Shown here in pieces: positions 6,895-21,125 of a stretch of 22,957 bases of DNA. Where the stretch lies: positions 1 to 22,957 of IMG/VR virus record IMGVR_UViG_3300044630_001740. The stretch is one strand, 5' to 3'. The notes below the pieces were generated by a model, which saw nothing but the letters and a program-made list of their open reading frames with translations, had not been told where the DNA came from and made no database searches. The stretch is from a virus. Within the stretch, counting starts at the first letter, position 1. Each line of letters begins with the position of its first letter. A program made the translations under genes and the position numbers.

Positions 6895-9510
6895 ATGGCA
6901 GACACACTAATATTTAAGATAGACACCACTCCAACCGTTTCGGCATTGCAGGACGTTAACGACTTATTGACGCAATCAAAGACTAAGCTAAAGGAATTAA
7001 CTGATGCAGGGAAGCAACAGACCAATGAATACATTGCACAAAATGCGGAAGTAAAGGCATTAGAGAAAGAGCAACGGGCGTTAAACAATGTTTTGGTGCA
7101 ACAGACTAGTGCAACAAAGATAATGACCCAAGCCACTGAAGATAACATAAAAGCAGGAAAGGCTCAGGAAAACAGCATTGCGGAAAATCGTAAAGCCTAC
7201 AACGCTTTATACAATCAATTAATCCAAACAGCGAAGCCAACACAAGAGCAAATTAAAACGGCTAAAGAATTAAATAAAACTTTAAAGGAACAAGAGGCGG
7301 CATTAGGTAACACTACTCGCAACGTGGGTAACTACGGTCAAGGGTTTAGTGAAGCAGGGAAGCAAATAAACTTATTTGGCGTAAACATTGGCGAGGTTTC
7401 TAAAGGATTAGAGGCTGCTAAAGCAGGTTTCACAGCCGCAGGTGGTGGCGTTAAGGGATTTAGTGCGGCATTAGCTACGACAGGTTTACCGTTGATTATA
7501 ATGGCTTTCTCGCAACTTACAAATGTATTAGAAGCATTTAAGCCAGTAGCTGACGCAGTAGAAACAGTTGTTACAGCTATTGGTGCAGGATTTAAAGCAT
7601 TATTGGACGGTGGGAATATTGCAGAAGCAGGTAGACAAGCCACAGCTTATTTAGAAATTCTTAGGGATTTAGAGGACACCGAAAACGGTGTGCAAATAGC
7701 GCAAGAAAAAAGGAATAATGAAGTTAGATTTTTGATTACATCTGCAAGAGATTTAGGCAAATCAACAAAGGAAAGAAATGAACTTTTAGCCGAAGCAGAA
7801 AAGTTACAAAAACAAAACTTCAAAGCAGATTTGGAGCGAAACAAAATTAAAAAAGATGGATTAGCTGAGTTGTTGAAAAGCCAAACAGGACTTACCCAAA
7901 AAGAATTAGATTACTTAGCAACATCAACTGATGCAACTGATGAATATTTTTTAAAATACAAAGCACAAGCCGAAAGCAGAACATCATTTGATGAGAAAAA
8001 ACTAAAAGAATATCAAAATGTTTTATTAGAAGAGGAGAAATTAAGAGGCAATAATGTAGTAGACTTAGAAAAGATTATTAGTGCAGGTAATAAACTAATT
8101 GAGAAACGTCAAGCCGCAGAAGAAAAAGCAGCAGCCGCAGCCAAAGCCGCAAAAGATAAAGCAGACCAAGCAGAGGCGGCAAGAATAAAAAATTTGGAAA
8201 CACTAGAAATAGAGTTTCAACTTAGTGAACGTGAAAGATTAAACAAATCATTTGAAGATAAATTAAAAACCGTTAAAGGCAAGGGTGAACGTGAGACGTT
8301 ATTAAGGTTAGATATTGTAGCGGCACAAGAAGCGGCATTAAAAAAGTTTGATGAAGATGCTAAAGCTAAAAAGAAAGCAAAAGATGACGCTGATGCATTA
8401 AATGAGAAAGCAAAACAAGACAAAGAGTTCAACGATAAAATTGCTTTCAATCAAAAGCAATTACAATTAGACTTAAATGCAGTTGATTTATCGGTTGCAA
8501 CAGAAAAAGAAAAGGAAAGACGTAAAGCCGAAATACAATTAGCGGCATTAGAGGAACAACTAAAATTAACTAAGAAATTTTTAGGTCCAGAAGGTTCGTT
8601 AACTAAAGAGCAGTTGCAAGGCATTACAGCTATTGAACAAGCTATTGCAAAAGCTAAAGAAGGATTGAAGCCTAAAGCAGAAGACCCAACCGTAGCAGAT
8701 GCTTTAGGGATAAACGAAGAAGGCATAGAAAAAGCGCAAGAAACATTATCTCAAGTCAGTAAAGCATTACAAGCCGTAACGGATATTGTGAACATGGGGT
8801 TTGAAACTAGGTTAAACAACATAGACGCTACAAAGAATGCCGAGATAGATGCGATTAACCAAAGCACAGCAAGTGAGGAAGACAAAGCAAAGAAGATACA
8901 AGAAATTGAGCGTGAAGCGGCAATGGCTAGGTATGACATTGAGTTAAAACAATTCCAAGCGAATAAAGCAACGTCAATAATTCAAACCATAATTAACACA
9001 GCACAAGCGGTGATGGCTCAATTATTAGCACCACCACCAGCAGGATTTATATTCGCAGGATTAGCGGCTGCAACAGGTGCGGCACAATTAGCACTCATAG
9101 CTTCACAGCCACCACCACCAAGACCAGCATTTGCCACAGGCGTTATCGGGTTAGACGGTGCAGGAACAGCAACGAGCGACAGCATAGACGCAAGGTTATC
9201 ACGAGGCGAAAGTGTAATGACAGCCAAAGCAACCGAGCGATTTGCACCAGTATTAGCGCAGATGGAGATGGCAGTAGGTAATAGACCAAACTTCCAATTA
9301 GGCAATAGAAAATTCGCCACAGGATACATACCTACAACGGACGGGGGGTATAGCGATAGGGCAATGAGTAATGAGGTGAACAACGCTAGTACGATGGCGA
9401 AGATGTTTAGCGATAGCATAGCTAAGATGCCACAGCCGAAACTCGTTTACGATGAGTTCACTAATTTTGTGAACAATCGCAATCAGTCGGTTAATTTATC
9501 GGAGTTGTAA
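6895..9510 (+). CDS. Tail tape measure protein
   Basis: 871 residues. This protein sets tail length and enters the cell during DNA ejection. Residues 1-155 form a long coiled coil with ENRKAYNALYNQLIQ and a segment ending NTTRNVGNYGQGF, familiar in tape measures of Bacteroidota phages. A hydrophobic Gly/Ala-rich region follows at about 160-240, including PLIIMAFSQLTNVL. There is a very long Lys/Glu/Ala coiled coil at about 250-700, with AAEEKAAAAAKAAKDKAD. A second hydrophobic segment, GFIFAGLAAATGAAQLALIA, precedes the Pro-rich PPPPRP and the common FATGVIGLDGAGT...RGESVMTAKAT ending. At roughly 1.5 angstrom per residue the tail would be about 130 nm. Its last 28 bases overlap the end of a reverse-strand gene. 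Confidence 0.9.
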   Translation: MADTLIFKIDTTPTVSALQDVNDLLTQSKTKLKELTDAGKQQTNEYIAQNAEVKALEKEQRALNNVLVQQTSATKIMTQATEDNIKAGKAQENSIAENRKAYNALYNQLIQTAKPTQEQIKTAKELNKTLKEQEAALGNTTRNVGNYGQGFSEAGKQINLFGVNIGEVSKGLEAAKAGFTAAGGGVKGFSAALATTGLPLIIMAFSQLTNVLEAFKPVADAVETVVTAIGAGFKALLDGGNIAEAGRQATAYLEILRDLEDTENGVQIAQEKRNNEVRFLITSARDLGKSTKERNELLAEAEKLQKQNFKADLERNKIKKDGLAELLKSQTGLTQKELDYLATSTDATDEYFLKYKAQAESRTSFDEKKLKEYQNVLLEEEKLRGNNVVDLEKIISAGNKLIEKRQAAEEKAAAAAKAAKDKADQAEAARIKNLETLEIEFQLSERERLNKSFEDKLKTVKGKGERETLLRLDIVAAQEAALKKFDEDAKAKKKAKDDADALNEKAKQDKEFNDKIAFNQKQLQLDLNAVDLSVATEKEKERRKAEIQLAALEEQLKLTKKFLGPEGSLTKEQLQGITAIEQAIAKAKEGLKPKAEDPTVADALGINEEGIEKAQETLSQVSKALQAVTDIVNMGFETRLNNIDATKNAEIDAINQSTASEEDKAKKIQEIEREAAMARYDIELKQFQANKATSIIQTIINTAQAVMAQLLAPPPAGFIFAGLAAATGAAQLALIASQPPPPRPAFATGVIGLDGAGTATSDSIDARLSRGESVMTAKATERFAPVLAQMEMAVGNRPNFQLGNRKFATGYIPTTDGGYSDRAMSNEVNNASTMAKMFSDSIAKMPQPKLVYDEFTNFVNNRNQSVNLSEL

Positions 9511-9674
9511 ATTTCATTATACTTCTCAATAGCCGCTTCACGAACGAACTTCGCCACACTTGTATTTGACTGCGGAAGTTGGCAATGGCTTTCTAAGCGT
9601 TTCCACCAATAAGGCGTGAACTGCGTTTTGAGTTGTTTTGAATACTTTTCTGCTTCGTCTTTTTTACTTGCCAT
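9483..9674 (-). CDS. Small ribbon-helix-helix-like DNA-binding protein
   Basis: 63 residues from the ATG at 9674; a TTG two codons upstream is less likely. The layout is that of a ribbon-helix-helix protein: a basic start (MASKKDEAEKYSK), a short strand (LKTQFTP), helix A (YWWKRLESHCQL), a turn with QSNTS, then helix B (VAKFVREAAIEKYNE). Such proteins bind DNA as dimers and often repress their own operon; similar small proteins also occur in plasmid mobilisation. The gene is second in a reverse-strand operon, overlapping the membrane protein gene by 11 bases. Two direct repeats at the operon's promoter are candidate binding sites. Its stop overlaps the tape measure gene's 3' end by 28 bases on the other strand. 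The fold assignment is by eye. Confidence 0.6.
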   Translation of the reverse strand: MASKKDEAEKYSKQLKTQFTPYWWKRLESHCQLPQSNTSVAKFVREAAIEKYNEIYNSDKLTD

Positions 9675-9843
9675 CTGCAATAGTTTTGGTTAGTTGACGT
9701 GGAATGAACAAGGCTATAATGAAGAACAATCTAACCCATTCAGACCATTGCAAAGGGTTAAGGTTTGCACCAATAAAGGCACAAAGTAAATAGCATAGTA
9801 CGAACGTAACTGATGCGCTGATGTATTTGTTTCGGATTGACAT
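9664..9843 (-). CDS. Small two-helix membrane protein
   Basis: 59 residues from the ATG at 9843. An in-frame ATG at 9867 lies within the promoter region and before the predicted transcription start, so it was rejected. Two hydrophobic segments are visible, about residues 9-28 (ASVTFVLCYLLCAFIGA) and 40-52 (VRLFFIIALFIP), with a basic C-terminus. No family is recognised. It is the first gene of a two-gene reverse operon placed between the tape measure and protease genes. Being on the opposite strand to every other gene here, it is likely expressed at another time, for example in lysogeny or early infection. A superinfection-exclusion or membrane-defence role is one possibility, without direct support. 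Confidence 0.6.
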   Translation of the reverse strand: MSIRNKYISASVTFVLCYLLCAFIGANLNPLQWSEWVRLFFIIALFIPRQLTKTIADGK

Positions 9844-9853
9844 GGTTAAAAAG

Positions 9854-9886
9854 TTTAGGACAAACATACTTTGATTTTAGGACAAA
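9854..9886. repeat. Pair of 11-bp direct repeats, candidate operator
   Basis: TTTAGGACAAA occurs at 9854-9864 and again at 9876-9886, 22 bases apart start to start, or about two helical turns. One copy overlaps the reverse promoter's -7 element and the other lies between its -33 and -7 elements, the placement expected of repressor sites. Confidence 0.6.
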
Positions 9887-9892
9887 AACAAA
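9861..9892 (-). promoter_or_regulatory. Bacteroidota-type promoter for the reverse operon
   Basis: On the reverse strand TTTG (9892-9889) is followed by a 20-base spacer and TATGTTTG (9868-9861), a full consensus match. It lies 17 bases upstream of the ATG at 9843. Two direct repeats overlap it. Confidence 0.75.
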
Positions 9893-9923: not shown

Positions 9924-11081
9924 ATGAACAGCGCAACGCTTTACATTAACGGTTATATCGGTCAGCAAGGTTTCTTCGATGAAGCGTCTTTTGACTTGAC
10001 TACGTTAAACAATTTCCTTGACCAGCACCAAGATATTGAAGAACTAAATGTGTTTATCAATAGCGGTGGCGGTTCAGTAACAGAAGGCTTTGCAATTCAT
10101 GACCGTTTAATGGCTTTGCCATTTACCGTTAACACAATAGTAAACGGAATGTGTGGCAGTATAGCAACCGTAATATTCCAAGCAGGTAAAAAGGGCAAAC
10201 GTAAGATGTACGCCAATAGCGAGTTCTTCGTTCACAATCCTTTTTGGATGCCCGATGCACCAAACGCAATGGAAGCAAAAGACTTGGAAGCATTAGCCGA
10301 AGATTTGAAACGTGCGGAAAATAAGATAGTTAACTTCTATTCTACAATCACTGGCAAATCAACCGAAGATTTGAAACCAATCTTAGACCGTCAAACAACA
10401 CTAACAGCAAGTGAAGCAATAGAACTAGGGTTTGCAGATGAAATCATGGGCGGTGAAATTAAGGCGTTCACCAAGTACAAAATAGCAGCGTATTTATCTA
10501 ATCAAAATAAAACAATTAACATGGCAGAACAAACCGAAATTAAAGCCGAGTTGACAGGAATAAAATCTTTCCTTGCAAAACTCACATCAAAACTTTTTAA
10601 GGCAGCAATGACCGAAACTATTGACGGCAAAGTAATTCACTTTGATGGCTCAACACTTACCGAAGGCACTTTGGTATTTGAAGACGAAACAATGTTGACA
10701 CCTTTGGCAGATGGTGATTACATTGTAGACACAGCTACTTACACCGTAGTTGGTGGTGTGGTTACAGCAGTAACAGAAGTTGAAGTTGAAGTTGAAGTTG
10801 AAGATGCAAAGCTAAAAGAAGCAAACGCACAAATCGAAGATTTGAAAGCACAACTTGCCGCTAAAGAAGAAATCGTAAACGAAAAAGAAACTTTGATTAA
10901 CGACACCAAAACCGAAATCGTTGCACTTGCAACAAAGGTGAAGTCTTTTGAAGCGTTACTTGTAACTGGTAAGAACTTCAAAGCAGAAGCAGGACAATCA
11001 AACAACACTAACCAAGATGCGCCTAAACTTTCAGCAATGGAAGTAATCGCAAAACGTAGAGCCGAAAAGGAAAACAAATAA
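9924..11081 (+). CDS. ClpP-type prohead (head maturation) protease fused to scaffold-like tail
   Basis: 385 residues from the ATG at 9924. An in-frame start at 9837 would run through the divergent promoter and adds a stretch unlike the family. Residues 1-190 are a ClpP/S49-like serine protease: strand NVFINSGGGSVTEGFAIHD (about 42-60), catalytic Ser79 in GMCGSIATVI, and His104 in EFFVHNPFW. The third catalytic residue is probably Asp133 or nearby. It ends with ASEAIELGFADEI, the usual end of the protease fold. The rest is a small beta domain, an Asp/Glu/Val-rich linker, and a coiled coil (about 295-350) as in scaffolding proteins, which the protease removes during maturation. It directly precedes the capsid gene. 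An internal ATG (MAEQTEIKAEL) could give a separate scaffold. Confidence 0.85.
   Translation: MNSATLYINGYIGQQGFFDEASFDLTTLNNFLDQHQDIEELNVFINSGGGSVTEGFAIHDRLMALPFTVNTIVNGMCGSIATVIFQAGKKGKRKMYANSEFFVHNPFWMPDAPNAMEAKDLEALAEDLKRAENKIVNFYSTITGKSTEDLKPILDRQTTLTASEAIELGFADEIMGGEIKAFTKYKIAAYLSNQNKTINMAEQTEIKAELTGIKSFLAKLTSKLFKAAMTETIDGKVIHFDGSTLTEGTLVFEDETMLTPLADGDYIVDTATYTVVGGVVTAVTEVEVEVEVEDAKLKEANAQIEDLKAQLAAKEEIVNEKETLINDTKTEIVALATKVKSFEALLVTGKNFKAEAGQSNNTNQDAPKLSAMEVIAKRRAEKENK
10776..10799 (+). repeat. In-frame (GAAGTT)4 hexamer repeat
   Basis: Four exact GAAGTT units, with a partial fifth, encode alternating Glu-Val in the protease-scaffold linker. Unit gain or loss would keep the frame, so linker length could vary between isolates. 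Confidence 0.8.
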
Positions 11082-13169: not shown

Positions 13170-13366
13170 GCGAAATAGAAAAGTATAGACATTGGTTGCT
13201 TTGTATTGCTAGGTTAGCCAAGCTAAAACATTATCACGGATTTGATATAAACTACAAGGATTGTGGGTTTAATGACTTTTGTAACAAGCCAAATGGACAC
13301 GGTGAAACCGAGTTAGAACGTAGCGTAAAACTATTTAGCAATGAAGTAAAACAGATATTTGCATGA
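13166..13366 (+). CDS. Hypothetical protein, 66 residues
   Basis: No family recognised. The protein is small and soluble, rich in aromatics and Cys (three cysteines: LLCIARLAK, KDCGFNDF, FCNKPNG), with a C-terminal charged helix. It overlaps both neighbours by ATGA junctions, so it is made with the 12828 gene and the glycosyltransferase genes. Coding potential rests on the coupled position and on a composition like its neighbours. Function unknown. Confidence 0.55.
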   Translation: MSEIEKYRHWLLCIARLAKLKHYHGFDINYKDCGFNDFCNKPNGHGETELERSVKLFSNEVKQIFA

Positions 13367-14004
13367 AGAAAACAATAGTTACCCGAAGCGCAAACGATAA
13401 ACTTTACAACCTATCAAAATCATTATGGCGTGATGACAATACCTTTGTAAGGTTGCAACAATTCACAGGCTTTCATGGTGCGCTGACTTATCTGCTTCAC
13501 ATTCTCGAAAACTACAACGGCATAATCGTAAACGCTGACGAAGATTTCTTTGTTACCAATGAGAACTTAATTGACCAAGTAATTGCTGACATGATTAAGA
13601 ATGATTTTGCGTATTGTGGTGTTCCAGATAAAGGAATTATATCGCACCGTGATAAGTCTTTCTTCCACGTCAATCCGTTCTTTAATGTATTTAATGTGGA
13701 CATCATTAAAACTAAGTTGCCAAAATTTGACAACTCAAAAGTTTATGACTACGCAAACCAGTGCGAAAAGAATGGCAATGTAGATGAGCCGTTTGCAGGG
13801 TTATTTTATTGGCTACATTTGAACTTCAAACACGCTAACTTCACCAAGATAACTTCAACAGATGGCACAAGTACGGTGATAAATATAAATGACAAACCGA
13901 TTGGCATCCATTCATGGTATAGTCGTGAGTATGGCAAGGACGTGAAGCAGACCGAGCGAATTGATAAGTGCCTAGAGTGGGCAATAATTAACCGAAATCA
14001 ATGA
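13363..14004 (+). CDS. Putative glycosyltransferase (GT-A type)
   Basis: 213 residues, no signal peptide or membrane segment. A hydrophobic strand (GIIVNADEDFFV, residues 53-64) places an Asp-x-Glu-Asp cluster (D59, E60, D61) where GT-A enzymes have their metal-binding DxD. It is followed by the acceptor-side helix (NENLIDQVIADMI) and by HVNPFFNVFNVDIIK, seen in several phage and capsule sugar transferases. A C-terminal HSWYSREYGKD would suit donor or metal binding by its His. It is the first of three consecutive sugar-transfer-like genes, joined by ATGA overlaps. The likely job is adding sugars to virion proteins or to host surface glycans. The GT-A call is by motif; donor, acceptor and family number cannot be read. 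Confidence 0.5.
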   Translation: MKKTIVTRSANDKLYNLSKSLWRDDNTFVRLQQFTGFHGALTYLLHILENYNGIIVNADEDFFVTNENLIDQVIADMIKNDFAYCGVPDKGIISHRDKSFFHVNPFFNVFNVDIIKTKLPKFDNSKVYDYANQCEKNGNVDEPFAGLFYWLHLNFKHANFTKITSTDGTSTVININDKPIGIHSWYSREYGKDVKQTERIDKCLEWAIINRNQ

Positions 14005-14609
14005 AGTTAATAGTACCATATCGAAATAGACTTGAACACCTTAAACAATTTGTAGAACATTACAAAGGGTTTGACATTTTAGTAGTCGAACAAGCGAATA
14101 ACGAGTTATTTAATCGTGGTAAATTGCTCAATATAGGCTTTAATGAGTGCAATGATAAAACGGTTTGCTTTCATGATGTGGATTTATTAGCCGAAAGCCT
14201 AGCGCATTACAAGCAACCTATTGATGGAGCGGTTCACTTCAGCGGTTTATGTGAGCAGTTCAATTACAAAGTACCTTACGATACTTGTTTTGGTGGCGTA
14301 ACGGCTTTTAATGCCGAAAGTTTTTTGAAGTGCAATGGATTTTCAAATAACTATTGGGGTTGGGGTGGCGAAGATGATGACTTATATACCCGAACAAAGC
14401 TAAACAACATCCGTACTAAATTCGAGTTACACAGATACAAGTCTTTGAAACACGAAAAACAACCCATTACAAGCGAATATAAGGCGAATAAAGAGCGATT
14501 GAATAGAACACAGCACACATGGGCGTTTGACGGCTTAAACAGCCTTAGATACAAGATAGTGGAACGTGGCGATATTTGTGGAGTGGAATTAATTAAAGTA
14601 GATTTGTAA
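14001..14609 (+). CDS. Beta-1,4-galactosyltransferase-like glycosyltransferase (GT7)
   Basis: 202 residues, close to a minimal catalytic domain with no membrane anchor. The motif series matches the animal beta4GalT family in order: VPYRNR (5-10), VVEQ (28-31), FNRGKLLNIGF (37-47), HDVDLL (58-63, metal-binding DVD), FGGVTAFN (97-104), NGFSNNYWGWGGEDDDLY (112-129), then H151 in the position of the second metal ligand, and DGLNSLRY (177-184). The known reaction is transfer of Gal (or GalNAc) from UDP-sugar to GlcNAc-type acceptors with Mn. The residue before FGG, which sets Gal versus GalNAc donor choice (Tyr289 in bovine enzyme), is Cys96 here. It overlaps the upstream gene by ATGA. Family assignment is strong; substrate is inference. 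Confidence 0.85.
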   Translation: MKLIVPYRNRLEHLKQFVEHYKGFDILVVEQANNELFNRGKLLNIGFNECNDKTVCFHDVDLLAESLAHYKQPIDGAVHFSGLCEQFNYKVPYDTCFGGVTAFNAESFLKCNGFSNNYWGWGGEDDDLYTRTKLNNIRTKFELHRYKSLKHEKQPITSEYKANKERLNRTQHTWAFDGLNSLRYKIVERGDICGVELIKVDL

Positions 14610-19865: not shown

Positions 19866-20266
19866 TAGTAGTCACAGCAATAGAAACAAATGGTGGATTT
19901 GCACCCGAAACAATACCGAGTAATTTTGTTAGTAGCTTATTTGATGGCACTAACTTTATTTATTTTGAAATAGCACAAGAGCAAATAGACTATTTGGCTA
20001 GTTTGCAAGTATGGAACAAAGAAGCGCACATTGCTGAAATAAACGCTTTGCATGAAGAAGAATTTAAACGTAGATTATTTAATGCAGATTATGTAGCTGA
20101 GTGGGAACTAAATGCAGTTTTAGCAGATAGCGAAAACGAATATTTTGACGAAGCGGTTTTAATTATAAACTATTGGTGGAACGGATGGGATGCGATAAAG
20201 GCATACAGCGAAACGGTAACAGAAGAAAACTTTATTGACCCTCAAACATTCGTAGATAACTTATGA
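19862..20266 (+). CDS. Small tail-associated protein, 134 residues
   Basis: No family recognised. The N-terminal third is strand-like (TAIETNGGFAPETIPSNF), the middle is a helix (EIAQEQIDYLASLQVWNKEAHIAEINALHEEEF), and the C-terminus is aromatic-rich (YWWNGWDAIKAY). It is acidic and without membrane segments. It follows the long fibre gene by a four-base overlap and precedes the holin. Fibre assembly chaperones commonly sit here, so that role is possible but unsupported by motif. Confidence 0.6.
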   Translation: MIVVTAIETNGGFAPETIPSNFVSSLFDGTNFIYFEIAQEQIDYLASLQVWNKEAHIAEINALHEEEFKRRLFNADYVAEWELNAVLADSENEYFDEAVLIINYWWNGWDAIKAYSETVTEENFIDPQTFVDNL

Positions 20267-20658
20267 TAGATTTTAAACTACTTTCTTCTAAATACGGTGG
20301 ACTGGCTTTAGCGGCAGTATTGACTTATTTAGCACCATTACAATCAACATTGTTCGTTGTGGGTGCAATTAGTTTAATTGACTTTATTACAGGCATTATG
20401 TCAGCAAAGACAAAGGCAGAGTTAATTACATCCAATAAAATGATTAGAAAGTTTTATGCGGTCCTATCTTACTTTTTAGCCATACTAATCGCTCACGTGA
20501 TTGGCGGTTATTATGGCGATGCCGACTTTATGGTCAAAGCGGTTGTGGCTATTATTGCGGTGAGTGAATTGCAAAGCGTGAGAGAGAATATAAAGGGCGT
20601 TACTAACTTGGATATATTGAAGCCTTTGATTAATATGCTAGAACGCAAATCAGAATAG
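20263..20658 (+). CDS. Phage holin (holin family 4-like)
   Basis: 131 residues with four hydrophobic segments, about residues 11-26, 29-47, 65-83 and 90-103. It shows the family's features: the loop after TM2 (SAKTKAELITSNKMIRKF), then YFLAILIAHVIGG and the following AVVAIIAVSELQSVRENI, where E-x-x-S-x-x-E-N is typical of pfam Phage_holin_4_1. Holins of this class form membrane lesions that let the endolysin reach the peptidoglycan. It overlaps the gene before (ATGA), and the endolysin gene follows two bases after its stop. Confidence 0.85.
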   Translation: MIDFKLLSSKYGGLALAAVLTYLAPLQSTLFVVGAISLIDFITGIMSAKTKAELITSNKMIRKFYAVLSYFLAILIAHVIGGYYGDADFMVKAVVAIIAVSELQSVRENIKGVTNLDILKPLINMLERKSE

Positions 20659-20660
20659 TT

Positions 20661-21125
20661 ATGCAGATAAGCAAATATGTAAGCCTAAAAGAAGCAACGA
20701 AAAGCGATTACGCTATACGTAAACAGATTAACAACATCCCAGATGATGGGCAGTTGGTAGCCATGAAGAATATAGCCACAAATGTATTTGATAAAGTTCG
20801 TGAGCACTTTGGCAAACCGATTGGTATTAGTTCTTTTTTTCGTTCCAAAGAAATAAACAAAGCGATTGGCGGTTCAATTAATAGCGACCATTGCAATGGA
20901 TGCGCCATTGATATTGATGCTGACATTTTCGGAGGCGTAACAAATAAACAAATCTTTGAATACATCAAAAACAATTTAGATTTCGACCAGTTGATTTGGG
21001 AGTTTGGAGATAGCAACGAACCTGCATGGGTTCACGTTTCTTTGAGATCAAACGGTGTTAATCGCAGACAAGTATTAGAAGCCGTAAAGATTGGCGGTAA
21101 AACACACTACAGAAATAAACAATGA
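20661..21125 (+). CDS. Endolysin, M15-type peptidase
   Basis: 154 residues, a zinc D-Ala-D-Ala-type peptidase that cuts cell-wall cross-bridges. The zinc-binding pattern is visible: IGISSFFRSKEINKAIGGS, then H77 in SDHCNGCAIDID with H-x6-D to D84, and H125 in WVHVSLR as the third ligand. A likely catalytic Glu lies at 114 in LIWEFG. No signal peptide is present, which fits release through the holin. The gene follows the holin directly and overlaps the next gene by ATGA. The family call (Peptidase_M15_3/4) is well supported by motif order; the cut bond is inferred. Confidence 0.85.
   Translation: MQISKYVSLKEATKSDYAIRKQINNIPDDGQLVAMKNIATNVFDKVREHFGKPIGISSFFRSKEINKAIGGSINSDHCNGCAIDIDADIFGGVTNKQIFEYIKNNLDFDQLIWEFGDSNEPAWVHVSLRSNGVNRRQVLEAVKIGGKTHYRNKQ

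Follow-up and report, generated by a model that had tools for sequence, protein, structure and literature searches.

A probable self-repressing ribbon-helix-helix and membrane-protein operon between the tape-measure and protease genes of a phage

The closest described analogue of the locus analyzed here is the immI region of phage P22, which contains the ribbon-helix-helix (RHH) repressors Arc and Mnt and the superinfection-exclusion gene sieA. Autoregulated operons are likewise known for the RHH proteins CopG, ParD and Arc; members of the RHH (MetJ/Arc) superfamily share a beta-alpha-alpha fold of about 45–60 residues, and in autoregulated operons the binding sites overlap the operon's own promoter. 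To our knowledge, few phage regulators have been characterized among phages with Bacteroidota-type promoters. The Bacteroidota -33/-7 promoter consensus is TTTG/TANNTTTG, and Flavobacterium data refine the -7 element to TAHHTTTG, with G almost absent at -10 and -9 (PMC6847099; Flavobacterium johnsoniae promoters).

In the window, by which we mean the whole 22,957-nucleotide stretch of virus DNA that was analyzed, only two non-overlapping genes are oriented leftward, as a sequence-only reading of the same DNA had stated, and the remainder of the record reads rightward (Table 1). The pair is flanked by the tape-measure gene on one side and the head-maturation protease gene on the other. Elsewhere in the window, a galactosyltransferase-7-like gene is found among the structural genes (14001–14609), and its neighbor (13363–14004) carries no assignment.

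Table 1. Positions of the leftward operon, its candidate control elements and its neighbors in the window.
Feature	Positions	Strand	Remarks
-33 element, TTTG	9889–9892	-	Promoter match
-7 element, TATGTTTG	9861–9868	-	20-bp spacer from -33; consensus from PMC6847099
Upstream candidate operator copy, TTTGTCCTAAA	9876–9886	-	Spans -30 to -20; type B retains its TGTCCTA core
Downstream candidate operator copy, TTTGTCCTAAA	9854–9864	-	Spans -8 to +3; shares bases with -7 element and covers predicted start at 9856
Membrane protein gene	9664–9843	-	59 aa; first gene of the operon
RHH gene, presumed autorepressor	9483–9674	-	63 aa; starts MASKKDEAEKYSKQLKTQFTPYWW
Reading-frame overlap	9664–9674	-	11 nt; start of RHH gene within end of membrane gene
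Tape measure protein gene	6895–9510	+	Convergent; 28 nt at its end shared with the RHH gene
ClpP-type head-maturation protease gene	9924–11081	+	Divergent; ATG at 9924

The second leftward gene had been read as encoding an RHH protein, and structural comparison makes this assignment very likely. The AlphaFold2 model (pLDDT 80) consists of an extended segment followed by helices at residues 21–31 and 40–57, with the beta strand at approximately residues 15–20 (KTQFT). Every one of the ten Foldseek matches of this model in the PDB is an RHH protein, among them ParD, NikR and operator-bound Arc, at E-values that are individually weak (best 2.4); the predicted model, with these weak-E matches, conforms to the superfamily fold. 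A profile from the alignment of 15 family members matches NikR and CopG-family chains (E 0.0035–0.0054). Pfam RHH_1 matches two of the 15 members weakly (best E 0.002) and does not match the window protein, for which Pfam returned a sub-threshold NikA-like match only. No match to the RHH proteins of types A, C, D and F (described below) was found in 50,697 phage records. By analogy with Arc, residues K16, Q18 and T20 of the strand would presumably face the DNA.

The leftward promoter, TTTG-N20-TATGTTTG, is one of eight matches to TTTG-N17-22-TAnnTTTG in the window, where 1.5 are expected. Its earlier description as a full consensus match is correct for TAnnTTTG but not for the refined TAHHTTTG, as it carries G at -9, a base rare there in Flavobacterium promoters; given this base, the promoter may be weaker than first stated. 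A scan for Escherichia coli sigma-70 promoters returned no match at this site, as expected of a Bacteroidota-type promoter. The rule that the G of the -7 element lies at -5 (PMC6847099) gives the predicted start in Table 1 and a leader of 13 nt. The distance of 31 bases between the protease ATG and the -33 element was as reported earlier.

Two exact copies of TTTGTCCTAAA (TTTAGGACAAA on the plus strand) lie 22 bp apart at this promoter, and the window contains no further perfect copies. The repeats had been described as overlapping the -7 element and the spacer, which they do, and the second copy also covers the start site; the candidate binding sites thus overlap the promoter of their own operon. 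Of 3000 dinucleotide shuffles of the intergenic sequence, 4 gave a perfect direct repeat of 11 bp or longer, and for the 11-mer taken singly the window shows no excess of near-matches (9 found, 17 expected). Statistically, it is the paired arrangement of the repeat alone that is significant. Each of seven related records (23–36 kb) has exactly one perfect pair, with one-mismatch sites occurring singly and scattered, which points away from a regulator acting across the phage and towards a dedicated autorepressor.

The gene pair was found at 13 IMG/VR loci, designated type A (L002–L012, n=11) and type B (L013 and L014, two short contigs); no relatives were found in the genome contigs searched. 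The type-A operator and RHH protein are common to 12 sequences, the window and L002–L012. Among type-A relatives pN/pS is 0.06 for the RHH gene and 0.09 for the membrane gene, values that indicate purifying selection and from which we conclude that both small genes are real. When type A is compared with type B, identity is 61–67% in the operator island and 56–62% in RHH codons 1–41, against 87–92% in the membrane gene, 92–95% in the protease and 88–96% in the RHH tail. Operator and RHH domain thus diverge together, as expected of a repressor that co-evolves with its operator, in a comparison that includes two type-B sequences. These two are only 76% identical in the tape-measure gene, L013 resembling L002 and L008 and L014 resembling the window and L003, yet they share 97% identity in the operator and 94% in the RHH gene, which suggests that operator and repressor travel together while their neighbors recombine.

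Despite its diverged promoter, type B keeps TGTCCTA twice, 22 bp apart. Within the 20-bp promoter spacer, the core is kept at 7 of 7 positions between A and B versus 2 of 13 other positions (P 0.0005, for a core chosen after the repeat had been seen), and the presumed DNA-contact strand KTQFT is identical in both types within an otherwise diverged domain. The upstream type-B copy, CGTGTCCTA, has lost TTTG, so what is conserved here is something other than a promoter element.

More distant loci were reached through searches with the protease, in phages 54–62% identical in that protein. The pair is kept at the same place in every type-C (L039–L045) and type-D (L077–L081) phage seen, with RHH strands RTVLN and KTTLP, respectively. 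Perfect 11-bp repeats precede the pair in both types, as ATGGCTAAAAA 23 bp apart in type C and ATTAAGGCTAA 25 bp apart in type D, so operator sequence and spacing change together with the RHH protein. Both sets of repeats are on the membrane-gene side of the leftward promoter, downstream of it, and those of type C cover the start codon of the membrane gene. The earlier rule of two helical turns on the same face of the DNA does not survive this comparison, since the 22-bp spacing is found only in types A and B. The sequence-only reading had also held that relatives with the pair but without repeats would count against it: repeats accompany the pair in types A to D, but in type E (L089, L093, L095) the pair is present without clear direct repeats, so the objection holds in part.

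Other distant arrangements vary further. In L094, the place of direct repeats is taken by an 18-bp palindrome lying across the -7 element. Type-F phages (L096, L098, L100) keep the RHH protein without the membrane protein, and in L096 GGGCTAAATTAGCCC directly follows TATATTTG. The L099 contig has the membrane gene with TTAGCCC twice, and ends before an RHH gene could be seen. The motif GGCTAA is present in five of five distant operator regions, 9 times versus 0.28 expected, an enrichment that is suggestive given that the regions were picked after inspection; its consensus does not reach type E or L098. Separately, L096 and L098 share a 21-bp palindrome, ATGTAACAAATATTGTTACAT, beside the protease start codon, a possible second operator.

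Taken together, we consider it quite likely that the pair is a self-contained, self-limiting accessory operon in which the RHH protein represses its own transcription through the promoter repeats. The earlier proposal of autoregulation is strengthened by the correlated divergence of operator and RHH protein, by the single operator pair per genome and by the repeats before the same pair in distant phages, and autorepression through the repeats is, on sequence grounds, well supported. We infer binding, repression and timing as follows. The leftward promoter would be read by a Bacteroidota host polymerase, and the mRNA, with its leader of about 13 nt, would yield the membrane hairpin protein and, through the overlapping frames, the RHH protein. 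RHH dimers would then insert their two-stranded beta ribbon (K16, Q18 and T20 by the Arc analogy) into two sites centered on TGTCCTA, one between -33 and -7 and one over -7/+1, and so block the polymerase and turn the operon off. The predicted outcome is that the membrane protein is made in a pulse that is brief or weak, and that the late genes meet little opposing leftward transcription.

Two further readings of the repressor are unlikely, to about the same degree. In one, the operator/RHH alleles would be matched specificities, such that in a mixed infection by closely related phages each RHH protein silences its own type only, in a minimal heteroimmunity-like system of phages with no known lysogeny module. 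In the other, the RHH protein, bound at 9854–9886, would act as a timing switch chiefly for the divergent protease/capsid block, repressing or activating late rightward transcription besides its own operon; the sequence-only reading had raised an effect on late transcription. The divergent layout is indeed kept in all types, and only 37 bp separate the operator from the start codon of the protease. However, the intergenic sequence contains no host-type TTTG/TAnnTTTG promoter on the plus strand from which the protease could be read, same-direction genes upstream allow read-through into the protease, and the repeats track the leftward start, not the protease, being found on the downstream side of the leftward promoter in types C and D. 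Nor does any of the seven records hold a second perfect operator pair elsewhere. The proposed effect on late genes is thus unsupported, and autorepression remains the preferred reading.

The 59-aa membrane protein has two hydrophobic helices (residues 3–24 and 35–57) joined by a loop with a conserved NPLxW (NP-x-x-W) motif. It has no informative family match or homology to known proteins, and the membrane proteins of types A and E have no match in 50,697 phage records. We rejected the idea that it is the main holin for lysis, since a separate holin_4_1/M15 lysis pair is encoded at 20263–21125 of the window. Our guess is that its activity is directed at the envelope, possibly in exclusion. No tyrosine integrase, serine recombinase/resolvase or rve-type transposase was found in 12–15 related contigs of 23–38 kb, which may be incomplete, so an exclusion role based on lysogens finds no support here. 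Small membrane toxins exist, and the membrane protein could be a toxin with the RHH protein as its autorepressing antitoxin; RHH antitoxins autoregulate their operons, and the ParD family is among the top structural matches. We regard this as improbable, as the RHH protein consists of the domain alone, with no obvious toxin-binding tail, the type-F phages retain it without the membrane protein, and no notable defense or toxin-antitoxin family match was obtained apart from one weak match to a GajA fragment. Least probable of all is that the repeats are duplications of the promoter (two overlapping -33/-7 elements) and not protein sites, for although each copy includes TTTG, part of both promoter elements, the upstream type-B copy lacks it while keeping TGTCCTA at the 22-bp distance, and the type-C and type-D repeats lie outside the promoter.

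The gap between tape-measure and protease genes is a recurrent site for leftward accessory genes in this phage group. Cargo downstream of the RHH gene varies, with a 276-aa protein in L010 and a short extra frame in L012; the former (L010:4199–5029), encoded just after the RHH gene, joins a sigma-70 region 4 to a C-terminal domain of RNA-polymerase alpha and is a possible phage transcription factor. In the remoter phages L121–L142 the leftward slot upstream of the protease holds a protein of about 170 aa (IGVNDIG.., IGVNDC..), and in L089–L095 it holds methyltransferase and glycosyltransferase-like genes. A T5orf172/MUG113-domain gene, possibly of GIY-YIG homing type, is inserted beside the pair in L039 (2219–2710), and in a remote phage another leftward gene, for a CopG-like protein of 53 aa, precedes the protease gene (L135:3427–3588). 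The operon resembles phage morons in having its own promoter, opposite orientation, variable cargo and a fixed position among the structural genes. Descriptions of morons usually concern prophages, whereas the integrase, resolvase and rve transposase searched for were not found here.

As a compact regulator-operator pair with allelic variants and diverged types, the locus could show which residues recognize which bases. By analogy, the leftward unit may work like a stripped-down P22 immI region, from which it differs in having no ant gene, one membrane gene and one RHH gene, two sites 22 bp apart, no detected sequence homology and no sign of temperate life in the contigs searched. With the operons of CopG, ParD and Arc it shares a small, predicted beta-alpha-alpha protein and repeated sites at the operon's own promoter; unlike these, it is paired with an unnamed membrane hairpin protein and belongs to a sequence family of its own. 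The unit is probably an RHH-autoregulated accessory operon, a known kind of system represented by new family members.
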